DNA from: Peribacillus simplex
Lineage (GTDB): Bacteria; Bacillota; Bacilli; Bacillales; DSM-1321
DNA length: 64,000 nucleotides
NCBI RefSeq assembly: GCF_001542915.1
Contig: NZ_LNNH01000027.1
Span: 62,001 to 126,000, forward strand
Direction of reading: 5' to 3'
Below are positions 6,978 through 23,341 of the stretch, piece by piece. The notes beneath the pieces are model-generated. The model was given only the letters and a program-made list of their open reading frames with translations, searched no databases and was not told the DNA's origin. The position numbers were made by a program, and so were the translations under genes. Positions within the stretch are counted from its first letter, which is position 1. Every line of letters starts with the position of its first letter.

Positions 6978-7160
6978 TCAGTCTTTGTTGTTGTTTACCA
7001 TCAATGATACAAAACAAAATAAGGCTATAAAAAATAGAAGTGCGGGAAAAGTATAAAATGTTGCATTGTATTTAATAGAAGAATCAACCTTTAAACCATA
7101 TAAATAAATAAATAGTATAAAAGAAACGGATAATGCTAGAGTACCGGTTAATAATTTCAT
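6978..7160 (-). CDS. Small two-helix membrane protein, 60 aa
   Basis: Starts MKLLTGTLAL and has two hydrophobic segments (about residues 5-22 and 37-55) ending in NNNKD. A GGAGGT site stands eight bases before the ATG, which argues it is translated. AT-rich, like the secreted-protein gene starting at 7254 on the other strand, and the two are divergent with about 90 bp between them. Function unknown; small membrane proteins beside secreted ones can be immunity or export partners, but nothing here proves that. Confidence 0.6.
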   Translation of the reverse strand: MKLLTGTLALSVSFILFIYLYGLKVDSSIKYNATFYTFPALLFFIALFCFVSLMVNNNKD

Positions 7161-7253
7161 TATTTTACCTCCACTTGGTTAATTTGTATTATTTTTTAAA
7201 AAATGTATAATGATATTATACAGAAAATATAGGAAAAAAGGGGAGATTTAAAA

Positions 7254-7881: not shown

Positions 7882-7933
7882 AACACGATATATTTTTATT
7901 AATCAATGGAAAATAAAACAGTATATCTATTCA

Positions 7934-8000
7934 GGGGCTGTCCCAAAAGTCAGGAATAAGACTTCTAGGGGGCAACCTTTTTCATTTAAGGACTTTTTTC
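7934..8000. repeat. Insertion-element end-like remnant
   Basis: The string GGGGCTGTCCCAAAAGTC resembles terminal repeats that are common at insertion sequences and small non-autonomous elements in Bacillaceae; AAGGACTTTTTT about 60 bases on could be the degenerate other end. No transposase is present. It separates the AT-rich patch from the bltD-like gene. Confidence 0.3.
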
Positions 8001-8017
8001 GCATGTTTCCTCCATGC

Positions 8018-8467
8018 TCATATTTTCTTGACCATGACTCTTTCATTGTTGAAATCTGCTTCGCCATTGAAGGCAAAGCCGAATTTCCTATACAAGTGAG
8101 AAGCAGCCTGATTCTCTTCGACTATGCTCAAATAGACCTCGGGGCAATCATACTCCATGGTTAACCGTTCGATCAAAGCCTCGAGCAGGATTGTTCCAAG
8201 GCCCTGGCCCTGATGCTTTGCGTCAATGAAAAAACGGTCGAGCCAAACTCGGCCATGCTCCCCTTCGCCAGGGAAAAAACCATACATCGCAAAACCGACC
8301 AAGGTATCTTCCGTATAAAGACCGACTGGCCTGTAATATTTACATTCCCGTGCATCTTTCAAACATTGCTCGGTCGTTTCGATAAATGTTCTTTGCTTTT
8401 CATGGATGTGCAGCTTCAAAATCTCCGCTCTATTTTCGTTCGTGACTTCTTTAATATGGACTGTCAT
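8018..8467 (-). CDS. bltD: BltD-like polyamine N-acetyltransferase (GNAT)
   Basis: 149 aa GNAT enzyme that closely follows Bacillus subtilis BltD, the spermine/spermidine acetyltransferase. Shared features: VGFAMYGFFP, GRVWLDRFFID, the acetyl-CoA loop HQGQGLGT, YLSIVEENQAASHLYRKFGF and the C-terminal ERVMVKKI. Expected role: acetyl transfer from acetyl-CoA to polyamines in the cytoplasm. The start is the ATG after GAGGAAGG; the long N-terminal extension of the open frame is not real. It is divergent from a MerR-family regulator, as expected for a blt-type locus, but the Blt efflux pump gene is missing. Confidence 0.88.
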   Translation of the reverse strand: MTVHIKEVTNENRAEILKLHIHEKQRTFIETTEQCLKDARECKYYRPVGLYTEDTLVGFAMYGFFPGEGEHGRVWLDRFFIDAKHQGQGLGTILLEALIERLTMEYDCPEVYLSIVEENQAASHLYRKFGFAFNGEADFNNERVMVKKI

Positions 8468-8525
8468 ATAATTTCCTTCCTCAATTCGCTCCGGTTTATC
8501 CGTTTTGTTATGATGATATACTAAT

Positions 8526-8556
8526 ACCCTAAGGTATCTGGTTACCATATAGTCAA
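8526..8556 (-). promoter_or_regulatory. MerR-type promoter and operator of bltD-like gene
   Basis: Minus-strand TTGACT (8556-8551) and a poor -10 (TAGGGT) are separated by 19 bases, the long spacer typical of MerR-activated promoters. The spacer holds an imperfect dyad, TATGGTA and TACCTTA with 6 bases between (8530-8549), the likely binding site of the adjacent regulator. Confidence 0.6.
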
Positions 8557-8570
8557 GAGGAGAGATCAAA

Positions 8571-9395
8571 ATGTCCGAGCTAAATATAGGAAAATATTTC
8601 ACAACCGGTGAATTCGCCAAATTATGCAATGTAAAGAAACAAACGCTCATCCATTATGATGAAATTGGGCTTCTGACTCCCGACATCAAAAACGACAAAG
8701 GGTATCGATATTATTCCTATCAACAATTTGAAGTTTTTTCTGTCATTTCATTATTAAAGGAATTCAATATGCCATTGAAGGAGATTAAGTGGTTTCTTAC
8801 CAACCGGTCACCTCTGGAACTGATCGAGCTTTTCAAAGAAAAGTCGCTGGAATTGGAAAAAAAGATAAGAAATCTTCATCGTATGCAGAAAATCATCGAA
8901 ACGAAAATCTCTCTCACTGAAAAAGCGCTATGTATGGATGACTCGCAAATCACCTTGAGACTCGAGGAGGAAGAACAGCTTTTTCTCAGTGAATCCATCC
9001 TGAACTCTTCTGATGCCGAATTCTTGAAAGCGACTTCGGACTTCATCGATTTCTGCAATGACAATGAATTTTACACCGGATTCCCTATCGGGGCGATGAT
9101 AAGCAAAGAAAGAATCCTCGACGGAGATCATGATAATTATTCGTTTCTTTACACGAAAGTAAATGATACGCATCATACCCCTGCCTTCCATGCCAAACCG
9201 AAGGGACTTTATATCGTTGCCTACCATAAGGGAAGCTATGAAAATATTTCCGAAACTTATAAAAGAATCGTCCGCTTCATGGAACATGAAAACTTGAACA
9301 TCAAATCGTTTGCCTACGAAGAATACATCCTGGATGAAGTCTCGGTAAAGGGATATGAAAATTACCTGACCCAGATCATGGTGGAAGTCGAATAA
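8571..9395 (+). CDS. MerR-family multidrug-type regulator (BltR/BmrR-like)
   Basis: 274 aa. N-terminal MerR winged helix (TTGEFAKLCNVKKQTLIHYD, then EIGLLTPD), coiled-coil dimer helix (about residues 75-125), and a C-terminal GyrI/BmrR-like effector domain of about 150 residues ending QIMVEVE. A GAGGAGAG site lies six bases before the ATG. Being divergent from a bltD-like gene with a 19-bp-spacer promoter, it probably activates that gene in response to a hydrophobic or cationic compound. The histidine in LIHYD replaces the more usual arginine (LRYYD). Confidence 0.85.
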   Translation: MSELNIGKYFTTGEFAKLCNVKKQTLIHYDEIGLLTPDIKNDKGYRYYSYQQFEVFSVISLLKEFNMPLKEIKWFLTNRSPLELIELFKEKSLELEKKIRNLHRMQKIIETKISLTEKALCMDDSQITLRLEEEEQLFLSESILNSSDAEFLKATSDFIDFCNDNEFYTGFPIGAMISKERILDGDHDNYSFLYTKVNDTHHTPAFHAKPKGLYIVAYHKGSYENISETYKRIVRFMEHENLNIKSFAYEEYILDEVSVKGYENYLTQIMVEVE

Positions 9396-9503
9396 GGGAG
9401 CGCTTTTAACCCGGCATCACACGATTGAGACGTTTGTTGACGGTTTGTGGAAGATGCCCTAGGATAAAAAGATAGGTATGATTTGGAAGGAGGATGAACG
9501 CAT

Positions 9504-10115
9504 ATGTCGCTAAAATCGGTCCTGCTTTCCTTGTTTCTGTCGCAAGCGTTATTTTTTTGCGGTCTGCCTTTGTTTCTTAAGCTTTCCTTATATTTGAATC
9601 CTTTGGCAATCCTGGTTGTCTGGTTTTGTATCCTCATGCTCGTTTCGTTCGCCGTTGTTTATTTTCGCAGAGAAGTGATCACCGTCCGGCGTTTTTTATG
9701 GCAGGCCGCACTTGTCGGCTACAGTACATCACTATCGGTTTTGCTGTTTTTTCGGCCAAAAGGGCAGGTCTATTCCTATAATCTGATTCCATTTTCCACC
9801 ATTCTATCTTATGCATCGAACGAAATGGATGGGTTTGTGTCATTTTATAACCTTAGTGCCAATGTGGGACTCTTCATTCCGTTCGGGCTGTATTTGTTGT
9901 CCAGGGAAGGGAAAGAGCCGACCGCCTTAACGAAATTTCTTCATCCGTTCACCTTGATTTTCATCATCGAGATCAGTCAGTTCGTTCTGCGGCGCGGAAG
10001 CTTGGATGTGGATGACCTTATCCTGAACATGAGCGGTGTTTACTTGGGATACCTCCTATATCCCCTTTTCTCCAGGGTGGTTAAGATCCTGCCTGGGAAG
10101 GGAAGATGCTGGTGA
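9504..10115 (+). CDS. VanZ-like membrane protein
   Basis: 203 aa with five or six membrane segments and the VanZ-family blocks YNLIPFSTI, ANVGLFIPFG, EISQFVLRRGSLDVDDLILN and SGVYLGYLL. VanZ confers low-level teicoplanin resistance in enterococci; chromosomal VanZ-like proteins in bacilli have no firm role. The ATG follows GGAGG by about nine bases. A single gene, with a conventional start and no obvious regulator; pepD follows 48 bases later and may be cotranscribed. Confidence 0.85.
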   Translation: MSLKSVLLSLFLSQALFFCGLPLFLKLSLYLNPLAILVVWFCILMLVSFAVVYFRREVITVRRFLWQAALVGYSTSLSVLLFFRPKGQVYSYNLIPFSTILSYASNEMDGFVSFYNLSANVGLFIPFGLYLLSREGKEPTALTKFLHPFTLIFIIEISQFVLRRGSLDVDDLILNMSGVYLGYLLYPLFSRVVKILPGKGRCW

Positions 10116-10163
10116 CGAAGTGTTCCAAGTTATATAAATAGGTTGTATGAAAGGGTGTTTTTC

Positions 10164-11627
10164 ATGTATCGCACGTTGGAAGAATTAACGGACCATCCCG
10201 TGTTTCATTATTTTGCAGAGATTTCGAAAATCCCGAGAGGTTCGGGAAATGAAAAAGCGATCAGTGATTATCTGGTTCGTTTTGCGAAGGAAAAGGGCCT
10301 AGAGGCAATCCAGGATGAAGCCCTCAATGTCATCATTAAAAAGCCGGCAGCACCTGGGTATGAAAGCGCTCCTGCCATCATCATCCAGGGACATATGGAT
10401 ATGGTATGCGAAAAGAATAAGGGGACCCTTCACGATTTTGAGAACGATCCCCTCCAATTACGGGTAATCGGCGACATGCTCTATGCGACGGATACCACTC
10501 TAGGTGCGGATAACGGCATTGCGGTTGCTTATGCATTAGCTCTCCTGGATGCGAATGATATCCCGCATCCTGCGCTTGAAATCGTGATAACGACCGAAGA
10601 AGAAACGACGATGAACGGGGCCCTTGCCGTTGATCCAGCTCACTTCAAGGGGAAAATGCTGATCAATATCGATTCGGAGGAAGACGGAAAGCTGCTCGTC
10701 AGCAGTGCGGGGGGAATCCGTGTCAGACAGATCCTCCCGATCACATGGGAAGCCGCCCCTAACGATGCAGTTCCCTATAGTATCAGGATTAAAGGGCTGA
10801 AGGGCGGACATTCAGGTATATCGATCGATAAGGAAAGAGGGAATGCCAATAAACTGTTGGGAAGATTATTACAAGATTTAACGATGGAATTCCCATGCTT
10901 TATTGAGCAAATGAGCGGGGGGCTAAAAGGGAATGCGATCCCTCGTGAAGCAGAGGCAATGGTACGGTTTCATGTTGAGGATGAGCAGAAGGTAAAGGAG
11001 AAAATCCAGCAATGGGACGAAACGTTTAAAAATGAAAGGCAATCCTCCGATCCTGAAGTGTCGATAAAGTTTGACCGGAGCTTCGCCGTTTCTGACACCG
11101 TTTTTTCCAAGGAGACGGCGGCTAAAGCCATTTCCTCCCTATTGATCATCCCCCATGGCGTACAAGGAATGAGCATGGGCATAAAGGGATTGGTCGAGAG
11201 CTCGACGAATCTAGGGGTCGTTACTGCCAATGAGGCCGAATTGACATTCGAAAGTGAAATCAGAAGCTCGATCAAAAGCATGAAATACCATATGGTCACC
11301 CAGGCAAAGGCCATCGCGGACATGCTCGGCTGCGACCTACTGATTGATGCGGATTATCCGGAATGGCCTTATAATCCTGATTCGAAACTCAAGAAATTAT
11401 TTGAAGCAGCATATCAAGACAAATATGATGCGGAGATTGAAATCATCGCTGTCCATGCAGGAATTGAATGCGGGGTGTTCATCGATAAGATACCAGGATT
11501 GGATGCCGTTGCGATCGGGCCGGATATATTTTCCGTCCATACACCTGATGAACATCTCAGCATCCCCTCGACGATAAATAACTGGGAATACTTCCTATAC
11601 ACATTAAAAAGGATGAAGGACCTTTAG
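10164..11627 (+). CDS. pepD: Cytosolic dipeptidase PepD (M20C aminoacyl-histidine dipeptidase)
   Basis: 487 aa, full length for PepD. Metallopeptidase of the M20 clan that cleaves dipeptides such as Xaa-His in the cytoplasm, using two zinc ions. Seen: metal-binding IIIQGHMDMVCEK, the bridging-aspartate region TTLGADNGIAVAYALAL, catalytic TTEEETTMNGALA, NIDSEEDGK, a dimerisation-type insert with GLKGGHSGISID, and the last metal histidine in the region PDIFSVHTPDEHLSI. The ATG at 10164 with AAAGGGTG upstream is preferred over a TTG seven codons earlier. Confidence 0.93.
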   Translation: MYRTLEELTDHPVFHYFAEISKIPRGSGNEKAISDYLVRFAKEKGLEAIQDEALNVIIKKPAAPGYESAPAIIIQGHMDMVCEKNKGTLHDFENDPLQLRVIGDMLYATDTTLGADNGIAVAYALALLDANDIPHPALEIVITTEEETTMNGALAVDPAHFKGKMLINIDSEEDGKLLVSSAGGIRVRQILPITWEAAPNDAVPYSIRIKGLKGGHSGISIDKERGNANKLLGRLLQDLTMEFPCFIEQMSGGLKGNAIPREAEAMVRFHVEDEQKVKEKIQQWDETFKNERQSSDPEVSIKFDRSFAVSDTVFSKETAAKAISSLLIIPHGVQGMSMGIKGLVESSTNLGVVTANEAELTFESEIRSSIKSMKYHMVTQAKAIADMLGCDLLIDADYPEWPYNPDSKLKKLFEAAYQDKYDAEIEIIAVHAGIECGVFIDKIPGLDAVAIGPDIFSVHTPDEHLSIPSTINNWEYFLYTLKRMKDL

Positions 11628-11661
11628 GGTTGTATATAAAAAAAGGAATGGAGATCTGGTT

Positions 11662-12561
11662 ATGAATCTGAAGATATTCATGATAGCGGCGGTAGCCATC
11701 ATCTTATGGGGATCTGCTTTTGCGGCCATTCGTGCAAGCCTCCATGGCGGTTACTCCGCAGGGCATTTAGTGCTGATTCGTTTTCTTATAGCATCAGGCG
11801 TTTTCATCCTTTATGCTCTATGGCCTGCGAGCAAATTCCGTTTACCGCGAAAAGAGGACGCGATAAAAATAGTGATCTTGGGCTGGATCGGCATCAGTCT
11901 CTATCAATTGGGTGTAACATTCGGTGAAGAAACCGTTTCAGCGGGGACGGCAGCGATGCTCGTTGCCTCTGCCCCCATTTTTACGGCGGTAATCGCTGCC
12001 ATGGTCTTAAAGGAGCGTCTAGGTTTGTTTGGCTGTGCCGGGTTAGTGATAGGTTTTGTCGGAATCTTCCTTATTACGTTGGGAACGGCCCGTTCAAGCT
12101 TCCATATTTCTAACGGAGCTTTTTTAGTATTATTCGCATCCGTTGCCACTTCGGTTTTTTTTGTTTTTCAAAAACCATTATTGCTTCGTTACAAGCCGAT
12201 TGAATTGACGGCGTATTTTACATGGGCAGGTACATTGCCTTTTTTCATCTTTTCTCCAGGCCTTATACATACAGTTCAAGAAGCGACACTGGAAGCGAAT
12301 GTCTCTGCTCTCTATATCGGCATTTTTCCGGGAGCCGTCGCTTATGTCTCTTGGGCCATCGCCCTATCATTAGGGAAAGCCAGCTCCGTTTCGAGCATGA
12401 TGTATATTGAACCGGCATTTGCTATTATCGTTGCTTGGATCTGGCTCCAGGAGCTTCCGAGTGTCCTTTCCACAATAGGCGGACTGGTTGCGGTTTCGAG
12501 TGTCGTCATCATCAATGGATTTGGAAAAAAGACAGACCAAGCACTAAAAAATAGTGCCTGA
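11662..12561 (+). CDS. EamA/DMT-family transporter
   Basis: 299 aa, ten predicted membrane helices in two EamA repeats; the first begins AAVAIILWGSAFAAIRASL and the second around residue 155 (FLVLFASVATSVFFVFQKPL). Drug/metabolite superfamily inner-membrane transporter, usually exporting amino acids or metabolites; the substrate cannot be told. GGAG stands before the ATG. It starts 34 bases after pepD, so the two may be cotranscribed, and a strong terminator follows. Confidence 0.88.
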   Translation: MNLKIFMIAAVAIILWGSAFAAIRASLHGGYSAGHLVLIRFLIASGVFILYALWPASKFRLPRKEDAIKIVILGWIGISLYQLGVTFGEETVSAGTAAMLVASAPIFTAVIAAMVLKERLGLFGCAGLVIGFVGIFLITLGTARSSFHISNGAFLVLFASVATSVFFVFQKPLLLRYKPIELTAYFTWAGTLPFFIFSPGLIHTVQEATLEANVSALYIGIFPGAVAYVSWAIALSLGKASSVSSMMYIEPAFAIIVAWIWLQELPSVLSTIGGLVAVSSVVIINGFGKKTDQALKNSA

Positions 12562-12592
12562 AAAACAGGTCATGGATTTTTGGAAACATGTA

Positions 12593-12619
12593 CGGTGTGA
12601 ATATTCACACCGTTTTTTT
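12593..12619 (+). terminator. Intrinsic terminator
   Basis: CGGTGTGAATATTCACACCG palindrome followed by seven T. Confidence 0.85.
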
Positions 12620-12718
12620 GCCTTTCATGAAATACCTGAAGATTTTGAGAGGTAATGGTAGAATGGAACAATAAACATATTATTCAGACAATGGGTGTTC
12701 CGATAAGGAGGAAAAACG

Positions 12719-13531
12719 ATGGACCAAGTCACTAGCATCATTACGCTTAACAACATTAACTGGCGGAGAAAAGGGACAACGATTTTGAATGAAGTGTCGT
12801 GGGAGGTTCGGCCAGGAGAGCATTGGGCCCTTCTAGGACTTAATGGATCAGGGAAAACATCCCTGCTGAAGATGATTATAGGGTATCAATGGCCAAGCAG
12901 CGGTCAAGTGTCCGTGTTGGGACATATTTTTGGCAAAACGAATATACCCGAGCTGCGGAAGTCCATTGGCTGGGTAAGTTCTTCCCTGGATCAAGAGTAT
13001 CAAGCAAGGGCAAATGATTCGGCCCTCGAAGTCGTCATAAGCGGCAAGTTCGCTTCGATCGGAATATATGACAAGATCACGGACGTTGATCGCAACAAGG
13101 CGATGGAACTGCTCGAGCAATTCAGGATCAAGCCTTTGGCCGATCAACTCATCCATACGCTCTCTCAAGGTGAAAAAAGAAAAGTGATGCTTGCAAGGGC
13201 CCTAATGTCTTCACCGAAGCTGCTGGTGCTGGATGAACCATGCAATGGACTGGATATTCACGCTAAGGAAGAATTATTGGCAGCGATCGAAAAAATGGCG
13301 AACTCCCCAGTCGCTCCAACGATCCTATATGTTACCCACCATATTGAAGAAATCGTCCCATCGCTCACACATGCGTTATTGATCAATTCCGGCACCGTAG
13401 TGGCTAAAGGTGAAAAAATGGAGGTCTTAACGGAGCCTATATTGGAAAGGACCTTTCAAGTCCCCGTCACGGTGAAATGGGAGAACGAGCGTCCCTGGAT
13501 CCGGATCAAATCCTTATTAACCCAAGGCTGA
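12719..13531 (+). CDS. Stand-alone ABC transporter ATP-binding protein (YlmA-like)
   Basis: 270 aa ATPase with Walker A LLGLNGSGKTS, signature TLSQGEKRKVML, Walker B LLVLDEPCNGLD and H-loop YVTHHIEE. It resembles Bacillus YlmA, an ABC ATPase with no permease gene next to it, which is also the case here. The 35 residues after the H-loop are unusual for an importer ATPase and end KWENERPWIRI. GGAGG precedes the ATG. Whether it energises a permease encoded elsewhere or has a non-transport role is unknown. Confidence 0.85.
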   Translation: MDQVTSIITLNNINWRRKGTTILNEVSWEVRPGEHWALLGLNGSGKTSLLKMIIGYQWPSSGQVSVLGHIFGKTNIPELRKSIGWVSSSLDQEYQARANDSALEVVISGKFASIGIYDKITDVDRNKAMELLEQFRIKPLADQLIHTLSQGEKRKVMLARALMSSPKLLVLDEPCNGLDIHAKEELLAAIEKMANSPVAPTILYVTHHIEEIVPSLTHALLINSGTVVAKGEKMEVLTEPILERTFQVPVTVKWENERPWIRIKSLLTQG

Positions 13532-13590
13532 GCTTGCAGTTTCAAGAGTACTAGTGTCCAAGTTTTAGAGAGTATGTGCAGGCATCTTTA

Positions 13591-14358
13591 TTATTTAATC
13601 GTATTGCCACCATCCATTACGATATTTTCACCAGTAATTAGATTTGTCGCCTCGCTGGCTAGGAATAAGGCAATGGCTGCCACTTCTTCGGGATATCCAA
13701 AGCGTCCAAGCGGAATTTCTTTTTTCGCTTGTTCCCCTTTTTCTCCAGCCCAAGCCTTTTTCCCTAATTCAGTCAAAATAACGGTAGGTGAAATAGCGTT
13801 TACTTTAATGTCAAATTGAGCCCATTCATAAGCAAGCACTTTCGTCATTCCAAGAATGGCCGCTTTACTTGCAGCATAAGCTACATGATTATCCAATGCA
13901 ATAAGTGCTGCCTGAGAAGCTAAGTTGATTATCTTCCCGCCTTTTCCTCGTTCAATCATTAAATGGCCGACCTTCTGGCACATTTTAAATGAACCAGTTA
14001 AGTTAACCTCCATCGTTTTTTGCCAGTACTCATCAGAAATATTTTCGGCATCATCGAGTAAAGCAATACCAGCACAATTGACTAGAATATCAATCTTGCC
14101 GAAGTGTGCTTTAACTTTCTGAATGGCTTGGTCCATACTTTCGTTACTAGTGATATCGCATTGCACGCCGATGGAATCTTTCACACTCCATTCCTTAGCT
14201 ATATCTGCCACAAAATCTTTTTGATCAAAAATAGCGACTTTTGCCCCCTTTTCTATGTATAATTCCGCTATAGCTTTTCCAATTCCGCTTGCTCCGCCTG
14301 TAACAATAGCAACTTTGTCTGTAATATTGAAGTTTTTATCATATCCTTGAAAATCCAT
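13591..14358 (-). CDS. Short-chain dehydrogenase/reductase (GolD-like)
   Basis: 255 aa classical SDR. NAD(P)-binding TGGASGIG (residues 20-27), NCAG at about 95, catalytic Ser in NLASQAA and Tyr161/Lys165 in YAASK, and the C-terminal GENIVMDGG. The N-terminus MDFQGYDKNFNITDK and overall pattern resemble GolD-type polyol dehydrogenases, so a sugar-alcohol substrate is plausible but not proven. GGGAG before ATG 14358 decides the start. A cre site just upstream supports carbohydrate-linked regulation. Single gene. Confidence 0.85.
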   Translation of the reverse strand: MDFQGYDKNFNITDKVAIVTGGASGIGKAIAELYIEKGAKVAIFDQKDFVADIAKEWSVKDSIGVQCDITSNESMDQAIQKVKAHFGKIDILVNCAGIALLDDAENISDEYWQKTMEVNLTGSFKMCQKVGHLMIERGKGGKIINLASQAALIALDNHVAYAASKAAILGMTKVLAYEWAQFDIKVNAISPTVILTELGKKAWAGEKGEQAKKEIPLGRFGYPEEVAAIALFLASEATNLITGENIVMDGGNTIK

Positions 14359-14388
14359 AAAATAGAGCTCCCTTTCATCGTATATTTT

Positions 14389-14403
14389 TGACAACGCTTT
14401 CAT
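14389..14403 (-). promoter_or_regulatory. cre site (CcpA) upstream of SDR gene
   Basis: TGAAAGCGTTGTCA on the minus strand fits the cre consensus TGWAANCGNTNWCA at every position. It lies about 30 bases before the SDR start, downstream of where the promoter must be, the arrangement of catabolite repression. Confidence 0.75.
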
Positions 14404-14625
14404 TATTGAATGCTGAATTAACTGTTTTCAGTTTATTACAAATGCAATTGATTATTCAATAGTTTTTTTCATTTATTTTTATATTTTTTCATTTTTTATC
14501 GTTTGTTATTGGATTTGATGGCCCGTAAATAAGACAGAAAAAAACTTGGTAATGATCCCACCCCAAGCTCATGCATGTAGCTCTCATTTTTTATTTAAAG
14601 CCCTCGTTATTTCTGTAAGGCCTTA

Positions 14626-15162
14626 TTATAGCCCGCCATCTAAACCGTCAATTTTCACGCCTCTACTCCATTCACGGTCGATTTTCAATCCCTTATTTGT
14701 AATGGATATGGTTAATTCTCCTTCCTTCTCATAAACCTTAGATGAGTTCCCGTCATAAACTTTAAATTTCGTTGTATAAAAATAATCTATTGTGCCATCA
14801 TCATTTTTGCTTTGTTCTTCAAGGGTCACATCTTTTACTTCAATACTTTTGTTAAGCTGCTTGGATACCAATTCCGGTATCTGATATTTACGGTTATCGA
14901 TCTCCGCCTTATATTGTTCGTCTGTTAAAAATACTTTCATATTTTTTGCAATTTCATCAAAAGTAGGGGGATCGGATGCATCTTTAATGGTATATAGCTC
15001 TGTACTATACCCTTTAAATAATTTTTCTGCATCCTCCAGACTGACCTTTTCCCCCTCATTAATAGGTATCCCTTCCTTCACCGCATCCTTGCTACAAGCA
15101 ACTACACCATTAAACAAAACAAATAAAAACAATAAACTGAGAATTTTCTTTATGATAGCCAC
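14626..15162 (-). CDS. Putative lipoprotein of unknown function
   Basis: About 178 aa with a type II signal peptide (hydrophobic ILSLLFLFVLFNGVVAC, lipid-anchored Cys23) and a soluble, charged domain outside the membrane. I start it at GTG 15162, six bases after AAAGGA; a TTG five codons earlier lacks a site. No enzymatic motif seen. The C-terminal half (YFYTTKFKVYDG, ELTISITNKGLKID) looks like beta strands. The gene stands alone. Confidence 0.75.
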   Translation of the reverse strand: MAIIKKILSLLFLFVLFNGVVACSKDAVKEGIPINEGEKVSLEDAEKLFKGYSTELYTIKDASDPPTFDEIAKNMKVFLTDEQYKAEIDNRKYQIPELVSKQLNKSIEVKDVTLEEQSKNDDGTIDYFYTTKFKVYDGNSSKVYEKEGELTISITNKGLKIDREWSRGVKIDGLDGGL

Positions 15163-16105
15163 CTCATTTCCTTTCAATGTCCTTACACTCTACATATTGA
15201 AGCAAATCGTTTCATTGAACGTTCATTATCATTAATTTTAACATAAATATCCATCTTGTATTTACACTACATATCAGGGAACAACCCCATCACCTCTTTG
15301 AAAATAACAGTGCTTGTGACAGCGGGTGAAGCTGAACCCTTGTTGAACCTAGCCGCACCTGATCAAGGAATCGGTGCTCATGTTTCCAAAAGCTATTTTT
15401 TAAAAAAAGTGTCATTATTTAACACATTTATACTAGAACGCTTGTTCTGTATGTGTTATTATAATAAAAACAAAAGATCTTATCGCTGCAAATGACTAGA
15501 TTCGCATTGATAATGAAAGGTCGGTTGTATCCGCGGGCCTCACACGGTTGTACCGCTGAGCCGAACCAATCAAAATCCTTCATTTAACAAAGGGTTCTTA
15601 CAGCCCCCTCTTCAGTTCATTAAGTAAAACCATCAGCTTCAGCCAGCATCCACATGACAAAAGTAAAACTCTGTCGCTTTAGAAGAAGCCCTTCCATCAT
15701 TGATCCCCAATCAACAAGTGGGTCAATAGAACGCCAAACAGAAATTCATCTTGTCGATTATTTGCGAATTCAGGGGTAAAGTCCAACGGTCAAATGAATC
15801 AATCTTCATACTATTAGCCTGTTTAATAATTTTATTGGGATAACTTCAGCCGAAGAATAGGTATGATGTATGAAAAGTAATGATAATATTCTGTTAATAT
15901 TTCGTGTGATATTGTAAATTTGTTTTAAAATTGGATTATTTTGTTGTAATATAGGATATACACGAATCTTTACAGGAAAAAAGTAGGGGGATTTGTGTAA
16001 ATGATGAAGTTTTTTCAGATATAATTTTTTGAAAAGCGTGCCAATTCAAGGGCCGTGTTAACAAATTATTATGTCAGTATAGAACTTATGGGAGGATATA
16101 CTCTA
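15163..16105. other. Intergenic region of about 940 bp with gene debris
   Basis: No supportable gene. It holds broken frames (for example VTAGEAEPLLNLAAPDQG near 15320-15380 that cannot be extended), one copy of a 53-bp repeat (15741-15793) also found at 52311-52363, and an AT-rich stretch (15890-16000) that must contain the promoter of the nucleotidase gene. The leader from about 15960 to 16105 is long and unexplained. The debris suggests past insertion or deletion before the nuclease locus. Confidence 0.55.
15741..15793. repeat. 53-bp repeat, copy 1
   Basis: Begins GAAATTCAT and ends AAAGTCCAACGGTCAA; about 47 of 53 bases match 52311-52363. The second copy abuts the truncated end of a nuclease-like gene fragment, whereas this one lies 313 bases before the intact nucleotidase-nuclease pair. 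Confidence 0.7.
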
Positions 16106-18910
16106 ATGGGGAAAAAGAAAATCGTGAAAATCGCATCTGCTGCGATGATGGCTGCGACAACGATCGTGGCAGTAGCACCGGCACCATCAGACGCCGCCAC
16201 TAGCCTGAATGCAAAAATCAAAGCAGCTAAGGCCACCATCAAAAAACCATTCGATACCTATTTCTACTCTTCTAAACTCGCTTCCGTGTCCACTGTCGAG
16301 AAACAAATCAAGTCAGCCAAGCAAGCTAAAAAAGACATCAACTCTTCAATTAAAAAATCACTATTAAGCAAAAAAGAAAAAGAAGCCAAATACAAAGAAA
16401 TCGAAGCTTATGATAAATATATCACCCGATCAGAGGGCTATGTAAAAGGATATAAAGACGCTGAAAAAGCGAAAGCGGCTCATGATAAGACGATCAATTC
16501 CCTTACGAACGCGGTCATTGCCAAGAAATCCAATGATATCAGAGATCAATACAACGCACTTGATAAAGCCGTGAAAAAGGCAGACAAGGCCATAAAGGAT
16601 ACGGTGTACGGTGCGAAGATCGAAAAGCTTTTATACGATAAATTCACAAAGTCGGCAAAAACGGCTTTGGATGGTGACCTTAAAGTGCCGTTTTACTATG
16701 AAAAAGCTGAGTACTGGGTGAAAAAAGGCGATTTGAAAACGGCAGACCAACGGATGAAAACCGTTTCGGCACAGCTGAAAAAGGTCAGTAAAACATCCAA
16801 ACTCGGCAAGGGCATCCATGCTTACGTAAAAGAAGTAACCGCTAAGTATGATGCTGCGGTATACGCAGAAAAGAAAAAGGAAGTCGCCAAAAAAGTGAAT
16901 GCCTATATAACTCTTGCCAACGGGGAGCTTAAAACGAAAGAACAGATAGACGCGGCTAAAAAAGCCAAGGCCGCCATCAATTTAAGTGGAATCAAGGATG
17001 CCGATCGCAAGGAATTCGAGGCGAAGATCACCCTGGCGGATAAAAAGGTTGCGGCTGCCGAAGAGGCTTTAAAGCCGAAGGCGATCACGCTTTCCTTGAT
17101 GCACACGAATGACACGCATGCCCACTTGGACAATGTGGCCAAAAGGGTGACGGCTGTTAAGGAAGTGCGTCAAGAAAAACCCCAAGCGTTGTTGGTGGAT
17201 GCCGGGGACGTATTTTCGGGAACTCTCTATTTCAATGAATTCAAGGGACAAGCAGATCTTCAATTCATGAATCTCATGAAATATGACATCATGACCTTTG
17301 GAAATCACGAATTTGACTTGGGTTCAAGTGCGGAAGGGCATCAAGCTTTGGCCGATTTCGTCAAAGGGGCACAATTCCCATTTGTCAGTTCGAATGTGGA
17401 TTTCTCCAAAGATAATAAATTTAAGGGACTCTTCTCTGACTTGATTTCAAGTAAACCGGAGCAAGGGAAGATTTACAATGGAATCGTGAAGGAAGTGGAC
17501 GGTCAAAAGGTCGGGTTCTTCGGGCTTACAACGGAAGAAACGAAAGATATTTCAAGTCCTGGAAGCATCCAGTTCGAAAACTATCTAGAAGAAGCCGAAA
17601 AAGCGGTCAAGGCATTCGAGGGCATGGGTGTGAATAAAATCGTCGCCATCTCCCATATTGGCTATGACGACAATGCAGCTTACGACAACGATCTTACATT
17701 GGCCGCAAGCGTAAAAGGGATCGATGTGATCGTGGGCGGCCATAGCCATACGCAATTGGATAACCCTGTCGTTATCGACAAGGATGCAAAAGGGAACGAG
17801 AAGGATCCTACTGTCATCGTTCAGGGCTATCAGTATAGTGACTTTTTGGGAACGGTCGATGTGAACTTCGATAAGGACGGCAAGATTGACGGCCATGCAG
17901 GCAAGCTGATCAAGCTTGCCGATAAACAGGAAGATGCCGAAGCGGCTAAAGTGCTTGAAACATACTCCTCGAAGATTAAGGAGCTGAAGGAAACGAAGAC
18001 AGGGGCAACCGCCGTGAATGCTTTGGAAACCCCTCGTGATGGAGGCGTCGAAACGAAGCCGAGTGTACGTAAAAATGAAACGGAACTAGGTAACTTGATT
18101 ACGGATGGCATGCTTAGCAAAGCGAAAGAATTCAATAATGCTGCAGTCATCGCGTTCCAAAATGGGGGAGGGATCCGGGCCGGCATCGATCAAGGCGATA
18201 TCACGCTAGGGGAAATCCTGACCGTTTTACCATTTGGCAATACGCTGGCGACGATGAAGCTGACTGGTGCCGAAATCACGGAGGCATTAGAGCATAGTGT
18301 CAGCCTTGCACCTAAGGAAAATGGTGGTTTCCTCCATGTAGCCGGAATGAAATTCAGCTACGACAGCTCGAAGCCGGCAGGCAGCCGTGTGAACAAGGTT
18401 GAGGTATTGGGCCAAGATGGAACATACTCCGAATTGGAGGCAGCGAAGCAATATGTCGTGGCGACCAACGCTTTTACAGCCAAGGGCGGAGATGGCTTCA
18501 CCGTTTTCAAGAAGGCTTATGAAGAAGGACGGGTGACGGATATCGGGCTCGCCGATTGGGAAAATTTACGCGATTATGTAAGCGGACTGAAAAACATCTC
18601 TCCAAGCATGGAAGGACGGATTAAAGACGTGGCTGGAAACCCTGCTGATCCAACCGTAGTATCTGCTAAGGACTTTGGGGGAAGTGCTGATGCACCGAAG
18701 ATCCATAACGGCGATGTGGTTGTGGACATTACGGATATCGACTCTTTGAAGGATGCGGAAGTTAAAGGCAATCTTACATTGACGGGTACTCCTGCGGATG
18801 ACTTCACTTTTTCGAATGTTACGGTCGAGGGCGATCTGGACGTAGCAGTTGTTCAAGGTAAAAACGTGAACATGAGCGGCATCACCGTGAAGGGCGAAAT
18901 CATTTTTTAA
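16106..18910 (+). CDS. Exported multidomain 5'-nucleotidase/metallophosphatase with wall-binding coiled coil
   Basis: 934 aa. Signal peptide (about 1-30), then a lysine-rich helical region (33-310) like the SbsC-type S-layer/cell-wall-polymer-binding coiled coils. A calcineurin-type metallophosphatase follows with HTNDTHAH (about 332), DAGDVFSG (366), GNHEFD (398) and VGGHSHTQ (544), then a 5'-nucleotidase C-terminal domain with ELGNLITDGM (660), QNGGGIRAG (684) and the substrate-binding AKGGDGFTVF (792). The last 70 residues are a beta-rich tail. Expected to release phosphate from nucleotides (and perhaps 2',3'-cyclic nucleotides) outside the cell. GGAGG before ATG 16106 sets the start. The dual nuclease gene follows 45 bases later: one operon. 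Confidence 0.9.
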   Translation: MGKKKIVKIASAAMMAATTIVAVAPAPSDAATSLNAKIKAAKATIKKPFDTYFYSSKLASVSTVEKQIKSAKQAKKDINSSIKKSLLSKKEKEAKYKEIEAYDKYITRSEGYVKGYKDAEKAKAAHDKTINSLTNAVIAKKSNDIRDQYNALDKAVKKADKAIKDTVYGAKIEKLLYDKFTKSAKTALDGDLKVPFYYEKAEYWVKKGDLKTADQRMKTVSAQLKKVSKTSKLGKGIHAYVKEVTAKYDAAVYAEKKKEVAKKVNAYITLANGELKTKEQIDAAKKAKAAINLSGIKDADRKEFEAKITLADKKVAAAEEALKPKAITLSLMHTNDTHAHLDNVAKRVTAVKEVRQEKPQALLVDAGDVFSGTLYFNEFKGQADLQFMNLMKYDIMTFGNHEFDLGSSAEGHQALADFVKGAQFPFVSSNVDFSKDNKFKGLFSDLISSKPEQGKIYNGIVKEVDGQKVGFFGLTTEETKDISSPGSIQFENYLEEAEKAVKAFEGMGVNKIVAISHIGYDDNAAYDNDLTLAASVKGIDVIVGGHSHTQLDNPVVIDKDAKGNEKDPTVIVQGYQYSDFLGTVDVNFDKDGKIDGHAGKLIKLADKQEDAEAAKVLETYSSKIKELKETKTGATAVNALETPRDGGVETKPSVRKNETELGNLITDGMLSKAKEFNNAAVIAFQNGGGIRAGIDQGDITLGEILTVLPFGNTLATMKLTGAEITEALEHSVSLAPKENGGFLHVAGMKFSYDSSKPAGSRVNKVEVLGQDGTYSELEAAKQYVVATNAFTAKGGDGFTVFKKAYEEGRVTDIGLADWENLRDYVSGLKNISPSMEGRIKDVAGNPADPTVVSAKDFGGSADAPKIHNGDVVVDITDIDSLKDAEVKGNLTLTGTPADDFTFSNVTVEGDLDVAVVQGKNVNMSGITVKGEIIF

Positions 18911-18955
18911 TTCGCATGAAACAGATATACGTAAAAAGTCGGAGGGGTTGAGATC

Positions 18956-21900
18956 TTGAAGAAGAGTGGGATGAGCAAGCTTTTCCTTGCCATATTGTTT
19001 GTGCTATCAACGGTTTTGCCATACGCCGCCGTTGCAAACGCGGAAGGGACGACGATAACGGTGGCGGAAGCCATTACCAATAACAGCGGGACGGCAACCG
19101 TGAAGGGATACATTGTCGGAGTCGCAAAAAACGGGACAAGCTATCAGCAGGCACCGCCTTTTACTGAAGGGACGAATATTGGGATAGCGGACAGCCGGGA
19201 TGAAACGGATGTAAAGAAAATCATGCCCGTTCAGCTTCCAGCCGGAAGCATCCGCACGGCATTGAATCTAGTCGATCATCCGGAATTGTTGAAGGCACAA
19301 GTGACGATTACCGGGAAATTGGAAAAATATTTTTCCGTACCTGGTCTGAAATCGCCGACCGCATACACCATCATCACGGATGGCGGAACTCCTCCTGAAC
19401 AGCCAGATGTGAAGGTTCTGGATTCCATTGCCGAAGCCCGCACGAATACCGAAGATGTTGTGCAGGTGGATGGCGTGGTGACCACAGGGCTGGGATATTG
19501 GGGTGGTAAAGGATTTTATATCCAAGATGAGACCGCTGGGCTATATGTGTATGGTTCTTCATGGCCTAAGGATGTGAAGCAAGGGGATAAGGTTCGTTTA
19601 ATTGGCAAGGTTTCGGCTTATAATAAGGAATTGCAAATGCAGCCGACTTCCTTGGATATCATTTCTTCCGGGAATGAGCTTCCGAGGATCCAAAAGCTGG
19701 ACGCAACTGGCGTCAATGGGGACACACAAGGGGAGCTGGTCACCCTTGAAAACGTGACCATTACAGGATTGGCTGCATCGGGAACATACGGAACATTCGA
19801 ATTTCTGGCGAAGGATGCAAACGGAAACACGGTGATTGTCCGTCATGATAACCGCAACGGTTCGACTTATGACGATTTCCTGAAAAGCTTTAAAGACGGC
19901 GATGTCATTTCCGTTACCGGAATCGCCTCACAATTTAATGACATATACCAACTGAAGCCGCGTGGCCTTGAAGATTATGAACTACTCAACAAACCGGCCG
20001 TTTACACGGATATTTTCCCTGGAACGGTGAGTGAACATACGAAGGTAATACTTAATACCGGCTGGAAAGATGCGAAGATTCATTATACGCTCGATGGCTC
20101 AGAACCGACTTCAGCAAGCACGCTTTACACAGAGCCCATCATCTTGACGAAAGATACGGTCATAAAGGCAATGGCCGTTAACGACAAAACGTCTGAGGTT
20201 TTCTCATTTGCCTATACCGTCACGAAAACCAATGAAGTGAAAATCCGTGAAATCCAGGGGATGGATCATTATTCATCGTACGAGAATCAACTCGTCTCTG
20301 GTGTCGAGGGTGTCGTCACGTATGTAAAAGATGCGAATAACTTCTACATGCAGGATCCGAATCCGGATCAGGACGTAACGACTTCGGAGGGAATTCTTGT
20401 ATACAATAAAGCGCATGGTCTGAAAGCGGGAGATCATATCAAGGTGGCAGGTAAGGTCGTTGAATGGTATATCGAGGGGTATGCCGAGATGAAAACGACA
20501 GATTTGCCAACAACGGAGTTGACGAACACGACCGTTGAAAAGCTCGGCACAGTGACTGTACCGAAACCGATCGTCATCGGCAAAGACGTCACTCCGCCTG
20601 CGGAAAACATAGATGATGATAGATTGACAGAATTCAATCCAGGCGAAGATGGCATTGATTTCTACGAGAGCTTGGAGGGTATGCTTGTCCAGGTATCCAA
20701 TCCAAAAGTGGTTGCTCCACAAGACTATGGTGAATTGGTCGTGGTTCCTGGGAATATGGAAACGACGACTGCTGTTGGAGGCGTGAAAATTACGGAAACG
20801 GACTACAATCCAGAACGGATCATCTTGGATATAGATGATGAAAAATTCGTGGCCAAAACCGGTGATTCCTTTGAAGGATCGGTTACGGGTGTACTCAGTT
20901 ATGGATTCAGCAACTACCGGGTGCTGACGGATAAAAATCAGCTGCCGACATTAAAGGATGGCGGCACGGCCCGGGAAGTGACAGCGTTAGAGAAGGATTC
21001 CGATAAATTATCGATTGCTTCCTATAATATCGAGAATTTCTCGACGCAAACGGCTAACGCGAAAGTGGAAACGATCGCAACATCCATCATTACAAATCTT
21101 AAGCAGCCCGATATCATCGGCGTTACCGAGATGCAGGATAATGATGGGGAAACGGACAGCGGGACAACGGATTCTGCACAAAGTGCCAAGAAGCTAACGG
21201 ACAAAATCAAAGCATTGGGCGGACCGGACTATCAATTCATCGATATCGCTCCAGAAGATAGACGCGATGGCGGAGCGCCAGGCGGGAATATCCGTGTCGG
21301 CTTCTTATATAATGCCGACCGTGTCAAGTTAACGGAGGGAACGAAAGGGTCGGCGACGCAGTCGGTAGCCTTCAAGGATGGAAAGCTTACCTTGAACCCT
21401 GGACGGATCGAGCCTGCTGATCCTGCCTTCGCTTCAAGCCGGAAGCCTTTGGCCGCTCAATTCGAATTCAAAGGCGAAAGTGTCGTGGTAGTCGCCAATC
21501 ATTTCAATTCAAAGGGCGGCGACCAGCCATTATTCGGAAAGAATCAGCCTCCTGTGCTTTCAAGCGAGACGCAAAGGCTTAAGATTGCTTCCATCGTCAA
21601 CGGATTTGTCAGTGATATCAAGGCACAGAATGCCAAGGCGAATATCGTCTTGCTTGGCGATTTCAACGATTATGAATTTTCGGCACCGCTTAAAACATTA
21701 AAGGGTAAAGACTTAACGAATATGATCGAGAAAGTCCCTTTTGAGAAACGTTATTCATACACCTATCAAGGGAATTCCCAAGTATTGGACCATATTCTCG
21801 TCTCGAATAATATGGCCGCCGCGACGAAAGTCGATATTGTCCATATTAACTCATCCTTCATGGAAGTGCATGGACGGGCAAGCGATCATGATCCTGTATT

Positions 21901-23290
21901 GATTCAAACCGCTTTATCCGGATCGGGCGGAGTTGAACCGGTTACGCCAGATAAAACGTATCATCTGCAAAACGTTAAAACAAAAAAACTTACGATTGCA
22001 TCCCCTAGTGTTTTGGTGGATCTGGACGAAGCATCCAAAATTGATGAAGGCATCATGTTAAAGAGTTCCTATGCAGTATTCAAAGGCTTGGGGCTCAAAA
22101 ATGCAGCAGTCACGATCAAGCCGGATAAGGAAGGCGCAGTCATTGATTTTGGCGGCATGGCGGTGAAGGAAGTCATCATCGATAATGCTCATGTAAAAGA
22201 AATCCGCGGCGCTGAGAATGTCCAGAAGTGGTCAGTAACCAAAGGCGTCGACACAAAGAATATCAAGTTTTTCGATTCGAAAGGGGAAGCCATCGCTTCC
22301 CCTTTTGGGATTAAAGAAAATCAAGCGCCAGTCGTGACGAAACGTTTGGAAAACGTTAATGTGCAACTAGGGTCTAAGGTAACGATCGATCTGGATGAAC
22401 ATTTTACAGACCCCGATGGCGATCCACTGACCTTTTCATCGACGCTTGGTATGGTTGCCGGCTCCACGTTAACTCTCCCTACGAATGAGGCGGGGACAAC
22501 CATTGTGGCAGTCAAGGCCGAAGACAAACAGTCGGAAGCGGTTGCCCGTTTCACGTTGAACGTCTCGGATGACTCGACGCTTGAAGCTTATTATGAAAAG
22601 GCGGCAGGAAAAACAGGGACGGAATTGAAGGCTGTGCTGCACTCCATCATCAAGGGACATACGATGGTGTCTTATGATCAAGTATGGAATGCTCTTAAGG
22701 AAACGGATGAAGATCCGCAAAACAGCAATCATGTCCTTTTGCTGTACTCTGGAAAATCGATTGCCAAGAACGCCAATGGCGGCAATGTTGGGCAATGGAA
22801 CCGTGAACATGTTTGGGCAAAATCCCACGGTGATTTTGGAACAAGCAAAGGCCCAGGGACCGACCTGCACCATCTCCGTCCCGCCGATGTGACGGTGAAT
22901 GGCAAACGGGGCCACCTCGATTTCGACGATGGCGGCCAAACGTACAATGGCTGTGAATGCAAATTCGATGCAGATTCATGGGAACCGCCAAACCATGTGA
23001 AAGGCGATATCGCCCGGATGCTGTTTTACATGGCCGTCCGTTATGAAGGGGACGGGGAGCTGGATCTGGAATTATCCGATTCGGTCAATACGTATCCGAA
23101 ACCGCTCCATGGAAAGCTTTCGACACTACTGAAATGGAATCAACTCGATCCAGTCGACGATTTCGAAAGCCATCGCAATCATGTCATTTATGGCTGGCAG
23201 CATAACCGCAATCCATTCATCGATCACCCTGAATGGGCGTCCAAGATTTGGGGTGCCGTGAATTCGAAGGATGAGAAAAAGGCTAGCTAG
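18956..23290 (+). CDS. Exported dual nuclease: OB folds, EEP nuclease and endonuclease I
   Basis: 1444 aa. Signal peptide to about residue 29; DUF6359-like domain (32-140); OB-type domain (152-260); second OB-like stretch; chitobiase-type beta domain (345-425, HYTLDGSEPTSAS); OB domain (427-670); endonuclease/exonuclease/phosphatase domain (682-985) with SYNIENFS, GVTEMQDN, VANHFNSKGG, LLGDFNDYE and SDHDPVLI; a beta domain; a cadherin/Ig-like domain (1122-1203, FTDPDGDPLTF); and an endonuclease I domain (1208-1444) with WNREHVWAKSHGD and DLHHLRPAD. The start is TTG, eight bases after GGAGGGG. YhcR of Bacillus subtilis also links OB folds to an extracellular nuclease, but two unrelated nuclease folds in one chain is unusual. 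Likely digests extracellular DNA/RNA, handing nucleotides to the upstream nucleotidase. No sortase motif seen. Confidence 0.9.
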   Translation: MKKSGMSKLFLAILFVLSTVLPYAAVANAEGTTITVAEAITNNSGTATVKGYIVGVAKNGTSYQQAPPFTEGTNIGIADSRDETDVKKIMPVQLPAGSIRTALNLVDHPELLKAQVTITGKLEKYFSVPGLKSPTAYTIITDGGTPPEQPDVKVLDSIAEARTNTEDVVQVDGVVTTGLGYWGGKGFYIQDETAGLYVYGSSWPKDVKQGDKVRLIGKVSAYNKELQMQPTSLDIISSGNELPRIQKLDATGVNGDTQGELVTLENVTITGLAASGTYGTFEFLAKDANGNTVIVRHDNRNGSTYDDFLKSFKDGDVISVTGIASQFNDIYQLKPRGLEDYELLNKPAVYTDIFPGTVSEHTKVILNTGWKDAKIHYTLDGSEPTSASTLYTEPIILTKDTVIKAMAVNDKTSEVFSFAYTVTKTNEVKIREIQGMDHYSSYENQLVSGVEGVVTYVKDANNFYMQDPNPDQDVTTSEGILVYNKAHGLKAGDHIKVAGKVVEWYIEGYAEMKTTDLPTTELTNTTVEKLGTVTVPKPIVIGKDVTPPAENIDDDRLTEFNPGEDGIDFYESLEGMLVQVSNPKVVAPQDYGELVVVPGNMETTTAVGGVKITETDYNPERIILDIDDEKFVAKTGDSFEGSVTGVLSYGFSNYRVLTDKNQLPTLKDGGTAREVTALEKDSDKLSIASYNIENFSTQTANAKVETIATSIITNLKQPDIIGVTEMQDNDGETDSGTTDSAQSAKKLTDKIKALGGPDYQFIDIAPEDRRDGGAPGGNIRVGFLYNADRVKLTEGTKGSATQSVAFKDGKLTLNPGRIEPADPAFASSRKPLAAQFEFKGESVVVVANHFNSKGGDQPLFGKNQPPVLSSETQRLKIASIVNGFVSDIKAQNAKANIVLLGDFNDYEFSAPLKTLKGKDLTNMIEKVPFEKRYSYTYQGNSQVLDHILVSNNMAAATKVDIVHINSSFMEVHGRASDHDPVLIQTALSGSGGVEPVTPDKTYHLQNVKTKKLTIASPSVLVDLDEASKIDEGIMLKSSYAVFKGLGLKNAAVTIKPDKEGAVIDFGGMAVKEVIIDNAHVKEIRGAENVQKWSVTKGVDTKNIKFFDSKGEAIASPFGIKENQAPVVTKRLENVNVQLGSKVTIDLDEHFTDPDGDPLTFSSTLGMVAGSTLTLPTNEAGTTIVAVKAEDKQSEAVARFTLNVSDDSTLEAYYEKAAGKTGTELKAVLHSIIKGHTMVSYDQVWNALKETDEDPQNSNHVLLLYSGKSIAKNANGGNVGQWNREHVWAKSHGDFGTSKGPGTDLHHLRPADVTVNGKRGHLDFDDGGQTYNGCECKFDADSWEPPNHVKGDIARMLFYMAVRYEGDGELDLELSDSVNTYPKPLHGKLSTLLKWNQLDPVDDFESHRNHVIYGWQHNRNPFIDHPEWASKIWGAVNSKDEKKAS

Positions 23291-23308
23291 TATTTTTAAG
23301 TTATTGGA

Positions 23309-23341
23309 GGAGCAGCTGGCATGTACACAGCTGCTCCTTTT
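23309..23341 (+). terminator. Intrinsic terminator of nucleotidase-nuclease operon
   Basis: Perfect 10-bp stem GGAGCAGCTG / CAGCTGCTCC, 9-base loop, TTTT. The 430 bases between it and sdaAB hold a small hairpin (23369-23398) without a T-run and the sdaAB promoter region; no gene seen. Confidence 0.85.

Follow-up and report, generated by a model that had tools for sequence, protein, structure and literature searches.

The two-gene locus

The window analysed here, a 64,000-nucleotide (nt) stretch of Peribacillus simplex DNA (NCBI RefSeq assembly GCF_001542915.1, contig NZ_LNNH01000027.1, positions 62,001 to 126,000 of the forward strand), contains two adjacent genes for a 5'-nucleotidase (5'NT) and a dual-fold nuclease. 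A preliminary description made from the letters alone had proposed two exported proteins of 934 and 1444 amino acids (aa), and both are borne out by the open reading frames (ORFs) and a Pfam domain search. Together the genes probably form a cell-wall unit that breaks down DNA and/or RNA outside the cell and releases phosphate and nucleosides, and their role would be one of scavenging. The locus is laid out as follows:

15885..15970, plus strand: conserved upstream block, likely promoter region (upstream-region alignment, correctly cut rows only)
16106..18910, plus strand: gene 1, predicted exported wall-bound 5'-nucleotidase, 934 aa, ATG start
18956..23290, plus strand: gene 2, predicted exported dual nuclease, 1444 aa, TTG start
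23306..23340, plus strand: likely intrinsic terminator closing the two-gene unit (hairpin of -23 kcal/mol, z -4.3, then TTTT)

The upstream block is almost identical across Peribacillus orthologues in the same alignment. Co-transcription of the two genes is likely, as the intergenic gap of 45 base pairs holds no terminator-like site in the scan made (the nearest, 18975-18990, falls within gene 2) and gives no significant hairpin on folding, while a strong hairpin with a T-run follows gene 2. This last hairpin was omitted by the terminator-site scan, probably owing to its nine-base loop.

Gene 1: a 5'-nucleotidase with an SbsC-type region

Gene 1 encodes three regions behind a Sec-like signal peptide, which was judged by eye and through which the protein is presumably secreted:

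16196..17053, plus strand: SbsC-like all-helical N-terminal region, residues 31-316 (AlphaFold, Foldseek, SbsC_C in relatives)
17078..18640, plus strand: 5'-nucleotidase catalytic region, residues 325-845 (Pfam; 5'-nucleotidase 2z1a, E 3.1e-101)
18656..18907, plus strand: P1C module, residues 851-934, no Pfam family (genomic placement across 397 genomes)

The catalytic region holds both Pfam domains of a UshA/CD73-type 5'-nucleotidase, Metallophos (residues 331-549, E 1e-12) and 5_nucleotid_C (652-803, E 9.6e-44). No SbsC domain is detected by Pfam in the gene 1 protein itself; the anchor is recognized from its predicted structure and from relatives. The AlphaFold model of residues 1-330 (predicted local distance difference test score, pLDDT, 89.9) returned only three Foldseek matches at E<=0.001, all of them SbsC structures (2ra1, 4uj6 and 4uic; E 2.8e-5 to 1.1e-4, probability 1.00, query template-modelling score 0.43-0.45). 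Pfam SbsC_C is found in 4 of 13 aligned gene 1 relatives (best E 4.8e-16) and the SbsC spectrin-like repeat in two of the 13, and an S-layer-like protein of 1101 aa from a congener, which matches SbsC_C, begins with the same N-terminal region (35% identity). The SbsC-like anchor of the preliminary description thus holds: the predicted structure of the region has the SbsC fold, and the protein would be bound to the wall through it. Among pairs of 10 closely related sequences the median ratio of nonsynonymous to synonymous substitution (dN/dS) is 0.066 for the 5'NT and 0.088 for the anchor.

Gene 2: two nuclease folds in one chain

Gene 2 likewise begins with a Sec-like signal peptide (judged by eye), and the computed domain order of its product is the following:

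19055..19372, plus strand: DUF6359, residues 34-139 (Pfam E 2.1e-35)
19403..19999, plus strand: first OB-type region, residues 150-348 (tRNA_anti and DUF5689 matches)
20012..20227, plus strand: chitobiase-C/Ig-like module, residues 353-424 (CHB_HEX_C_1, E 4.4e-19)
20237..20995, plus strand: second OB-type region before EEP, residues 428-680 (PDB 9sf9/9sf8, ExeM_NucH model, custom OB profile)
21002..21925, plus strand: EEP nuclease domain, residues 683-990 (Pfam; conserved residues)
21947..22303, plus strand: SOL module, residues 998-1116, beta-rich, no Pfam family (AlphaFold pLDDT 96.6)
22304..22582, plus strand: Big_9 Ig-like module, residues 1117-1209 (Pfam)
22583..23263, plus strand: endonuclease I (EndoI) domain, residues 1210-1436 (Pfam E 3.1e-41; conserved residues)

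The Pfam matches themselves span DUF6359 34-139, tRNA_anti 191-235, DUF5689 188-340 and CHB_HEX 355-413 in the N-terminal part, and EEP 688-978, Big_9 1122-1208 and Endonuclease_1 1220-1426 in the C-terminal part. Residues 428-985 match the PDB entries 9sf9 (E 3.5e-157) and 9sf8 (E 5.8e-157), and residues 428-680 are read as a second OB region because of the ExeM/NucH model (450-983, below its cut-off) and a custom OB profile. A remnant of a further copy of this region, about 122 residues long and 80% identical to gene 2 residues 518-639, lies on the minus strand of the window at 52340-52768; it has no plausible start or signal peptide and is present too in a genome of the same species (G025).

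The two nuclease folds of the preliminary description stand, as both domains score above their Pfam cut-offs and so belong to their superfamily and family, EEP with 35.9 bits against 24.5 and Endonuclease_1 with 142.1 against 25. No loss of catalytic residues, which that description had named as an outcome counting against itself, was seen, the key residues being kept in all 56 EEP and all 81 EndoI rows aligned. In EEP these are E725, H849, D902, N904, D945, H946, D977 and H978 (N691 is kept in 52 rows), and in EndoI E1284, H1285, H1305, H1306 and N1315; we take their catalytic role (EH...N for EndoI) to be that of their counterparts in DNase I and Vvn. The EndoI rows are domains of at least 190 residues and exclude the second copies L156, L140, L083, L146 and L148 (L numbers denote loci, G genomes and C contigs). 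Median dN/dS among the 10 related sequences is 0.042 for EEP, 0.078 for EndoI, 0.14 for SOL and 0.21 for Big_9. By alignment the active sites of both nucleases are conserved, and by substitution rate they are subject to purifying selection.

This conservation bears on what the two folds may each do. It is quite possible, though somewhat short of an even chance, that EEP and EndoI differ in substrate (for example, DNA for EEP and RNA or single strands for EndoI) and that the nucleotidase serves either, a view compatible with a joint digestion unit. Redundancy alone would not preserve two selected active sites; on the other hand, substrate cannot be read from sequence and EndoI is optional, its presence changing 9 times on the EEP tree. 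That tree comprises the 56 EEP rows (L083, a near copy of L081, was omitted, and L069, a broken copy, was coded by hand as having both P1C and 5'NT), and on it P1C changes 8 times, an adjacent or fused 5'NT 11 times and SOL 4 times. On a quick tree of the 81 EndoI rows the EEP-EndoI fusion changes 3 times, and a single origin of the fusion is not settled by these figures of nine and three.

No wall anchor is found in the gene 2 protein by Pfam or profile, nor an LPxT[GSAN] motif, and the 5'NT ORFs scanned have no C-terminal LPxT-like motif. Standalone nucleases in which DUF6359 stands ahead of EndoI are numerous, including in Actinobacteria (L102, L105, L110), which makes DUF6359 look like an accessory domain of nucleases in general.

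The pair across relatives

Named relatives of the gene 2 protein come from P. muralis (90% identity), P. simplex and P. frigoritolerans. In the family, 43 genomes were compared: gene 2 is matched at E<=1e-20 in 37 and gene 1 in 42, and the same 19 encode both proteins at full length and side by side. In P. frigoritolerans T7-IITJ (G015; L069/L156) both genes are present only as fragments, the pair lying in several pieces with frameshifts and stops; this genome is 87% complete, and the fragments may reflect a pseudogene or an assembly error.

The fetched loci contain 60 EEP ORFs, 57 of them distinct; as many come from close species and some loci are short, the counts below are not independent and neighbours may be missed. 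EEP and EndoI occur together in 27 of the 57, with an adjacent 5'NT in 20 and a P1C protein directly upstream in 23. The dual nucleases with neither neighbour are L069 (the broken copy, with pieces upstream), L074, L075 and L217. Seventeen others have EEP and SOL without EndoI, 12 of them with an adjacent 5'NT. The remaining 13 lack SOL: EEP and 5'NT form one chain in four (L141-L144), no 5'NT neighbour was found for the other nine, and a P1C neighbour is absent from all 13. With a 5'NT next door in 20 of 27 dual nucleases, separation of the pair in most genomes, the second outcome that the preliminary description had set against itself, is not seen; nuclease and nucleotidase together are the common state, and the two-gene form occurs in more than one family of the order. 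A shared pathway of nuclease and nucleotidase is suggested by the one-chain relatives. As a whole the earlier interpretation is partly supported: it stood for both proteins, the SbsC-type region and the two folds; the full path from polymer to nucleoside and phosphate that it drew, with mononucleotides released by the two nucleases, is putative; and it missed P1C, SOL, the EEP-5'NT fusions and the relatives with split genes.

P1C and SOL as candidate docking modules

No Pfam family exists for either P1C, at the end of the nucleotidase, or SOL, between the two nuclease domains. A survey of 397 genomes of the order gives 18 strong P1C matches (E<=1.5e-10), spread over 17 genomes; 22 further, weaker places (E ~1e-7 to 1e-4) lie outside the neighbour count. 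Seventeen of the 18 immediately precede an EEP-SOL nuclease encoded on the same strand, with 3.3-3.9 kb between the starts of the P1C and SOL matches; the eighteenth (G098:C135) lies ahead of a fragment at a contig end that has DUF6359 and a chitobiase-C module, domains with which the nuclease opens. The carriers of P1C vary, having an SbsC-like or SLH anchor with 5'NT; L080 combines SLH, 5'NT and a choice-of-anchor I-like region, while L081 encodes an SLH-P1C protein in which no enzyme domain was found, its 437-aa frame lying 24 nt ahead of the nuclease frame. In many relatives the P1C end is retained when the anchor switches from SbsC-like to SLH.

The AlphaFold model of SOL (pLDDT 96.6) is beta-rich and probably a small solenoid. 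No PDB structure matches it at E<=0.001, the best candidate for naming the fold (cyclase-associated protein, VIA Z 6.9) was too weak to adopt, and a SOL and Big_9 profile found nothing significant among PDB sequences. P1C and SOL were also considered as a single family, which a profile comparison rejected (probability 1.5%).

Because P1C stands beside EEP-SOL nucleases and outlasts changes of anchor, and no anchor was found in gene 2 itself, the genomic pattern suggests that P1C and SOL hold the otherwise unanchored nuclease on the wall by way of the nucleotidase. An alternative, rather less probable than not, is that the genes are neighbours for the sake of regulation only, the proteins acting independently and P1C and SOL being general surface modules. 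SOL indeed ends another large exported protein (L174, with Metallophos just below its Pfam cut-off), and elsewhere it occurs in tandem (L217), on nucleotidases (L216, L234) and on large proteins (L219, L220, L231); the placing of P1C beside EEP nucleases at 17 of 18 strong places, and probably also at the eighteenth by its fragment, speaks against such independence. With these two previously unnamed modules the docking question becomes directly testable.

Proposed function

In the proposed sequence of events, the gene 1 protein would leave the cell and be fixed in the wall through its SbsC-type region, where its catalytic half would strip phosphate from 5'-nucleotides. The gene 2 protein would also be exported; its OB-type regions may bind nucleic acid, and its two nuclease domains, metal-dependent and of different fold, would cut it. 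The protein would probably stay close to the nucleotidase, most likely by way of SOL and its partner's P1C, so that fragments would be handed on and phosphate and nucleosides freed beside the cell. In Bacillus subtilis, YhcR, NucA and NucB are reported to reclaim phosphate from extracellular DNA in biofilms (PMC11458576).

Regulation by phosphate was approached by scoring PhoP-box-like hexamers with a simple score, based on a consensus of tandem TTNACA-like repeats, against shuffles and 68 real upstream regions. On the sense strand pstS reaches 22/24, phoA on C46 20/24, phoD 19/24 and a second phoA 16/24. Gene 1 scores 18/24 on the sense strand and 20/24 on the antisense strand, the conserved block at 15885-15970 holding antisense PhoP-like hexamers, and 3 of the 68 upstream regions reach 20 antisense; these scores do not establish a phosphate-starvation promoter for gene 1.

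Several observations weigh against a phosphate-scavenging unit docked through P1C and SOL. Seven of the 27 dual nucleases, L069 among them, have no adjacent 5'NT. SOL matches occur in 45 of the 397 genomes, often without P1C and on other proteins; a strict P1C-SOL partnership was rejected, as 14 of 44 SOL nucleases have no upstream P1C protein, and five nuclease/5'NT pairs (L153, L216, L218, L232, L234) lack P1C. Both modules evolve faster than the enzyme domains (median dN/dS 0.20 for P1C and 0.14 for SOL), and tree-aware tests of SOL against P1C yielded 2 independent pairs on starred branches, too few for significance.

Matrix remodelling as the main role, in which the nuclease cuts extracellular DNA and so loosens biofilm or frees cells while phosphate gain is secondary, is improbable: Shewanella ExeM has been linked to biofilm formation (PMC6085458) and Vibrio cholerae nucleases to biofilm formation and detachment (PMC6746945, PMC3212620), but the 5'-nucleotidase partner, fused to EEP in 4 relatives, adds nothing obvious to matrix cutting, and the analogous B. 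subtilis nucleases are described as supplying phosphate (PMC11458576).

The same genome has another group of related genes at C46:65900-82400 (L168, L169). Here about 17 kb contain a 1271-aa protein (called YfkN-like for its resemblance), a DUF6359-EndoI protein and an alkaline phosphatase that has PhoP-like repeats on the sense strand; this may be a second phosphate-scavenging cluster.

Split nucleotidase genes in relatives

Some relatives of gene 1 lack the signal peptide and anchor, and a conserved element stands in their place. The element was considered as a riboswitch, but no Rfam match at gathering was found in five loci, and a relaxed search gave domain 5 (D5) of group II introns. Scores for RF00029 (D5/D6) lie below the gathering threshold of 40 bits (L076 37.5, L149 37.5, L159 33.2, L273 37.2; E 5e-6 to 1.3e-3 for the stretches searched). 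The 20 distinct D5-D6 elements collected have 97% standard pairs and 9 pairs changed on both sides, with 43 such cells against 15.1 in shuffles. Read on from the predicted 3' splice site, GRGAAT, all 20 keep one and the same phase open for 91-617 codons, the other phases reaching at most 28.

Intron 5' parts, 14 in number, were found by their shared start. Each follows one long open frame of 199-1220 codons (some end with the locus), the other phases reaching at most 47. About 640 nt of sequence is conserved in 12 of the 13 aligned; L252 is the truncated exception, and L279, which carries an insert, was left out. No Rfam group-II D1D4 model matches at E<=1 in the L159, L149 and L273 stretches, and the 5' part is taken as the presumptive domains D1-D3 because of its place and conservation.

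Nine loci show the ordinary order of an ORF-less intron, with D5 at most 1.6 kb beyond the 5' part and on its strand. Four loci deviate, each with a 5'-nucleotidase as exon 2, three being permuted and one divergent:

L076 (= L275), P. loiseleuriae, 6084-15214: permuted split 5'-nucleotidase, dual nuclease gene inside
L159 (= L279), P. loiseleuriae, 7747-4248: permuted split 5'-nucleotidase
L273, genome G001 (another genus), 8522-5633: permuted split 5'-nucleotidase
L149 (= L274), genome G001, 3060-2221 and 3965-5852: halves on opposite strands, beside dual nuclease

In the permuted loci the order on one strand is D5-D6, the 5'-nucleotidase without signal peptide, then, further on, an exon with signal peptide and SLH, and the intron 5' part. 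The SLH exons of the four loci (SLH by Pfam) have signal-peptide-like starts and frames of 203, 206, 216 and ~527 aa. Their spliced order would equal that of unbroken genes, namely SLH-5'NT (L222, L145, L218), SLH-5'NT-P1C (L224) and SLH-P1C-5'NT-P1C (L229, L233); in the protein of L233, residues 3-575 align to exon 1 of L076 (37% identity) and residues 592-1165 to its exon 2 (55%). An ordinary cis-acting intron was sought at L273, L274, L275 and L279 with the D5-D6 model (E<=0.01) and rejected, as the 6-7 kb beginning with the 5' part contain no further D5.

Given these arrangements, there is about an even chance that in these relatives the wall anchor of the nucleotidase is joined by natural back- or trans-splicing of a group II intron. 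Back-splicing would yield a circular mRNA reading the SLH exon into the nucleotidase; alternatively, two transcripts would be trans-spliced. The split genes may instead reflect loss of function. In Clostridium tetani the ORF-less group II intron C.te.I1 is reported to follow a surface-protein exon, with separate D5/D6 copies and alternative splicing (McNeil et al., PMC3919590), and circularly permuted (CP) group II ribozymes with permuted domain order have been described (PMC8637638). Unlike in C.te.I1 and the CP ribozymes, the intron parts in the four relatives abut the two exons of a nucleotidase gene, in permuted order around it or in divergent orientation. No paper on such an arrangement was recognized by title or abstract start among the literature matches listed, most subscription journals lying outside the search. 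If correct, this would be, as far as the literature found goes, the first natural bacterial back- or trans-splicing that builds a protein; the split relatives are a concrete, testable candidate for it.

At the thresholds used, the numbers of D5 elements and of loci with a 5' part genome-wide are 4 and 4 in G001, 7 and 2 in G018, and 9 and 1 in G029; ordinary mobile introns probably account for some of the weaker D5 matches. In G029, D5-D6 elements stand before a signal-less 5'NT (L276, 11482-11563) and before a choice-of-anchor I ORF recognized by Pfam (L277, 13922-14003), no intron 5' part being found within these 19-kb stretches; G029:C15 holds a second, weaker D5. In L278, three units of D5-D6 and exon follow one another in tandem, an arrangement also reported from C. 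tetani.

The splicing proposal concerns these relatives and not the window's own nucleotidase gene, which is ordinary and unbroken; no such intron element was found in the window's genome by pattern, model or 5' part. Elsewhere in the window, Rfam recognizes a c-di-AMP riboswitch at 2247-2389 on the minus strand and a T-box leader at 62281-62497 on the plus strand.

Comparison with known systems

The nuclease domain of B. subtilis YhcR is of the SNase type, unlike that of the gene 2 protein, which has EEP and Endonuclease_1 domains and no SNase domain by Pfam. Among known systems the pair is closest to YhcR, grouped with YfkN, NucA and NucB, and resembles it as an exported, wall-held nuclease with a 5'-nucleotidase (PMC3222306), and differs in forming two chains rather than one, a single chain being seen only in the relatives L141-L144. 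The sortase signal of YhcR is given as LPDTS (PMC3222306), whereas an SbsC-type region takes its place here. By chain organisation, nuclease type and sortase signal, as read from sequence, the window pair falls outside the YhcR family; with it, wall-attached nucleic-acid scavenging would comprise, besides the one-chain YhcR, a form spread over two genes in which two unrelated nuclease folds occur. Among 14 control genomes DUF6359 is found in B. subtilis alone, where it lies in YhcR.

As in ExeM/NucH (NCBIfam NF033681), an OB-type region precedes EEP in gene 2, and ExeM is reported to be inactive after deletion of either its OB-type region or EEP (PMC6085458). Gene 2 lies outside that family, scoring 210.7 bits against a cut-off of 300, and adds the DUF6359, SOL, Ig and EndoI modules. 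Its closest solved relative by sequence over residues 428-985 is the EEP domain-containing protein of PDB 9sf8/9sf9; a literature search found no paper naming 9SF8 or 9SF9.

Members of the endonuclease I family include Vvn, EndA and B. subtilis YurI, and the C-terminal domain of gene 2 (E 3.1e-41) is like them in retaining the catalytic residues. The family often consists of small standalone proteins (55 of the 81 rows are without EEP), while gene 2 is multidomain; the window's genome also encodes a standalone DUF6359-EndoI protein (L168, 12505-13659). With the S-layer protein SbsC (2ra1, 4uj6, 4uic), finally, gene 1 shares the predicted anchor fold, the difference being that here the anchor carries an enzyme.

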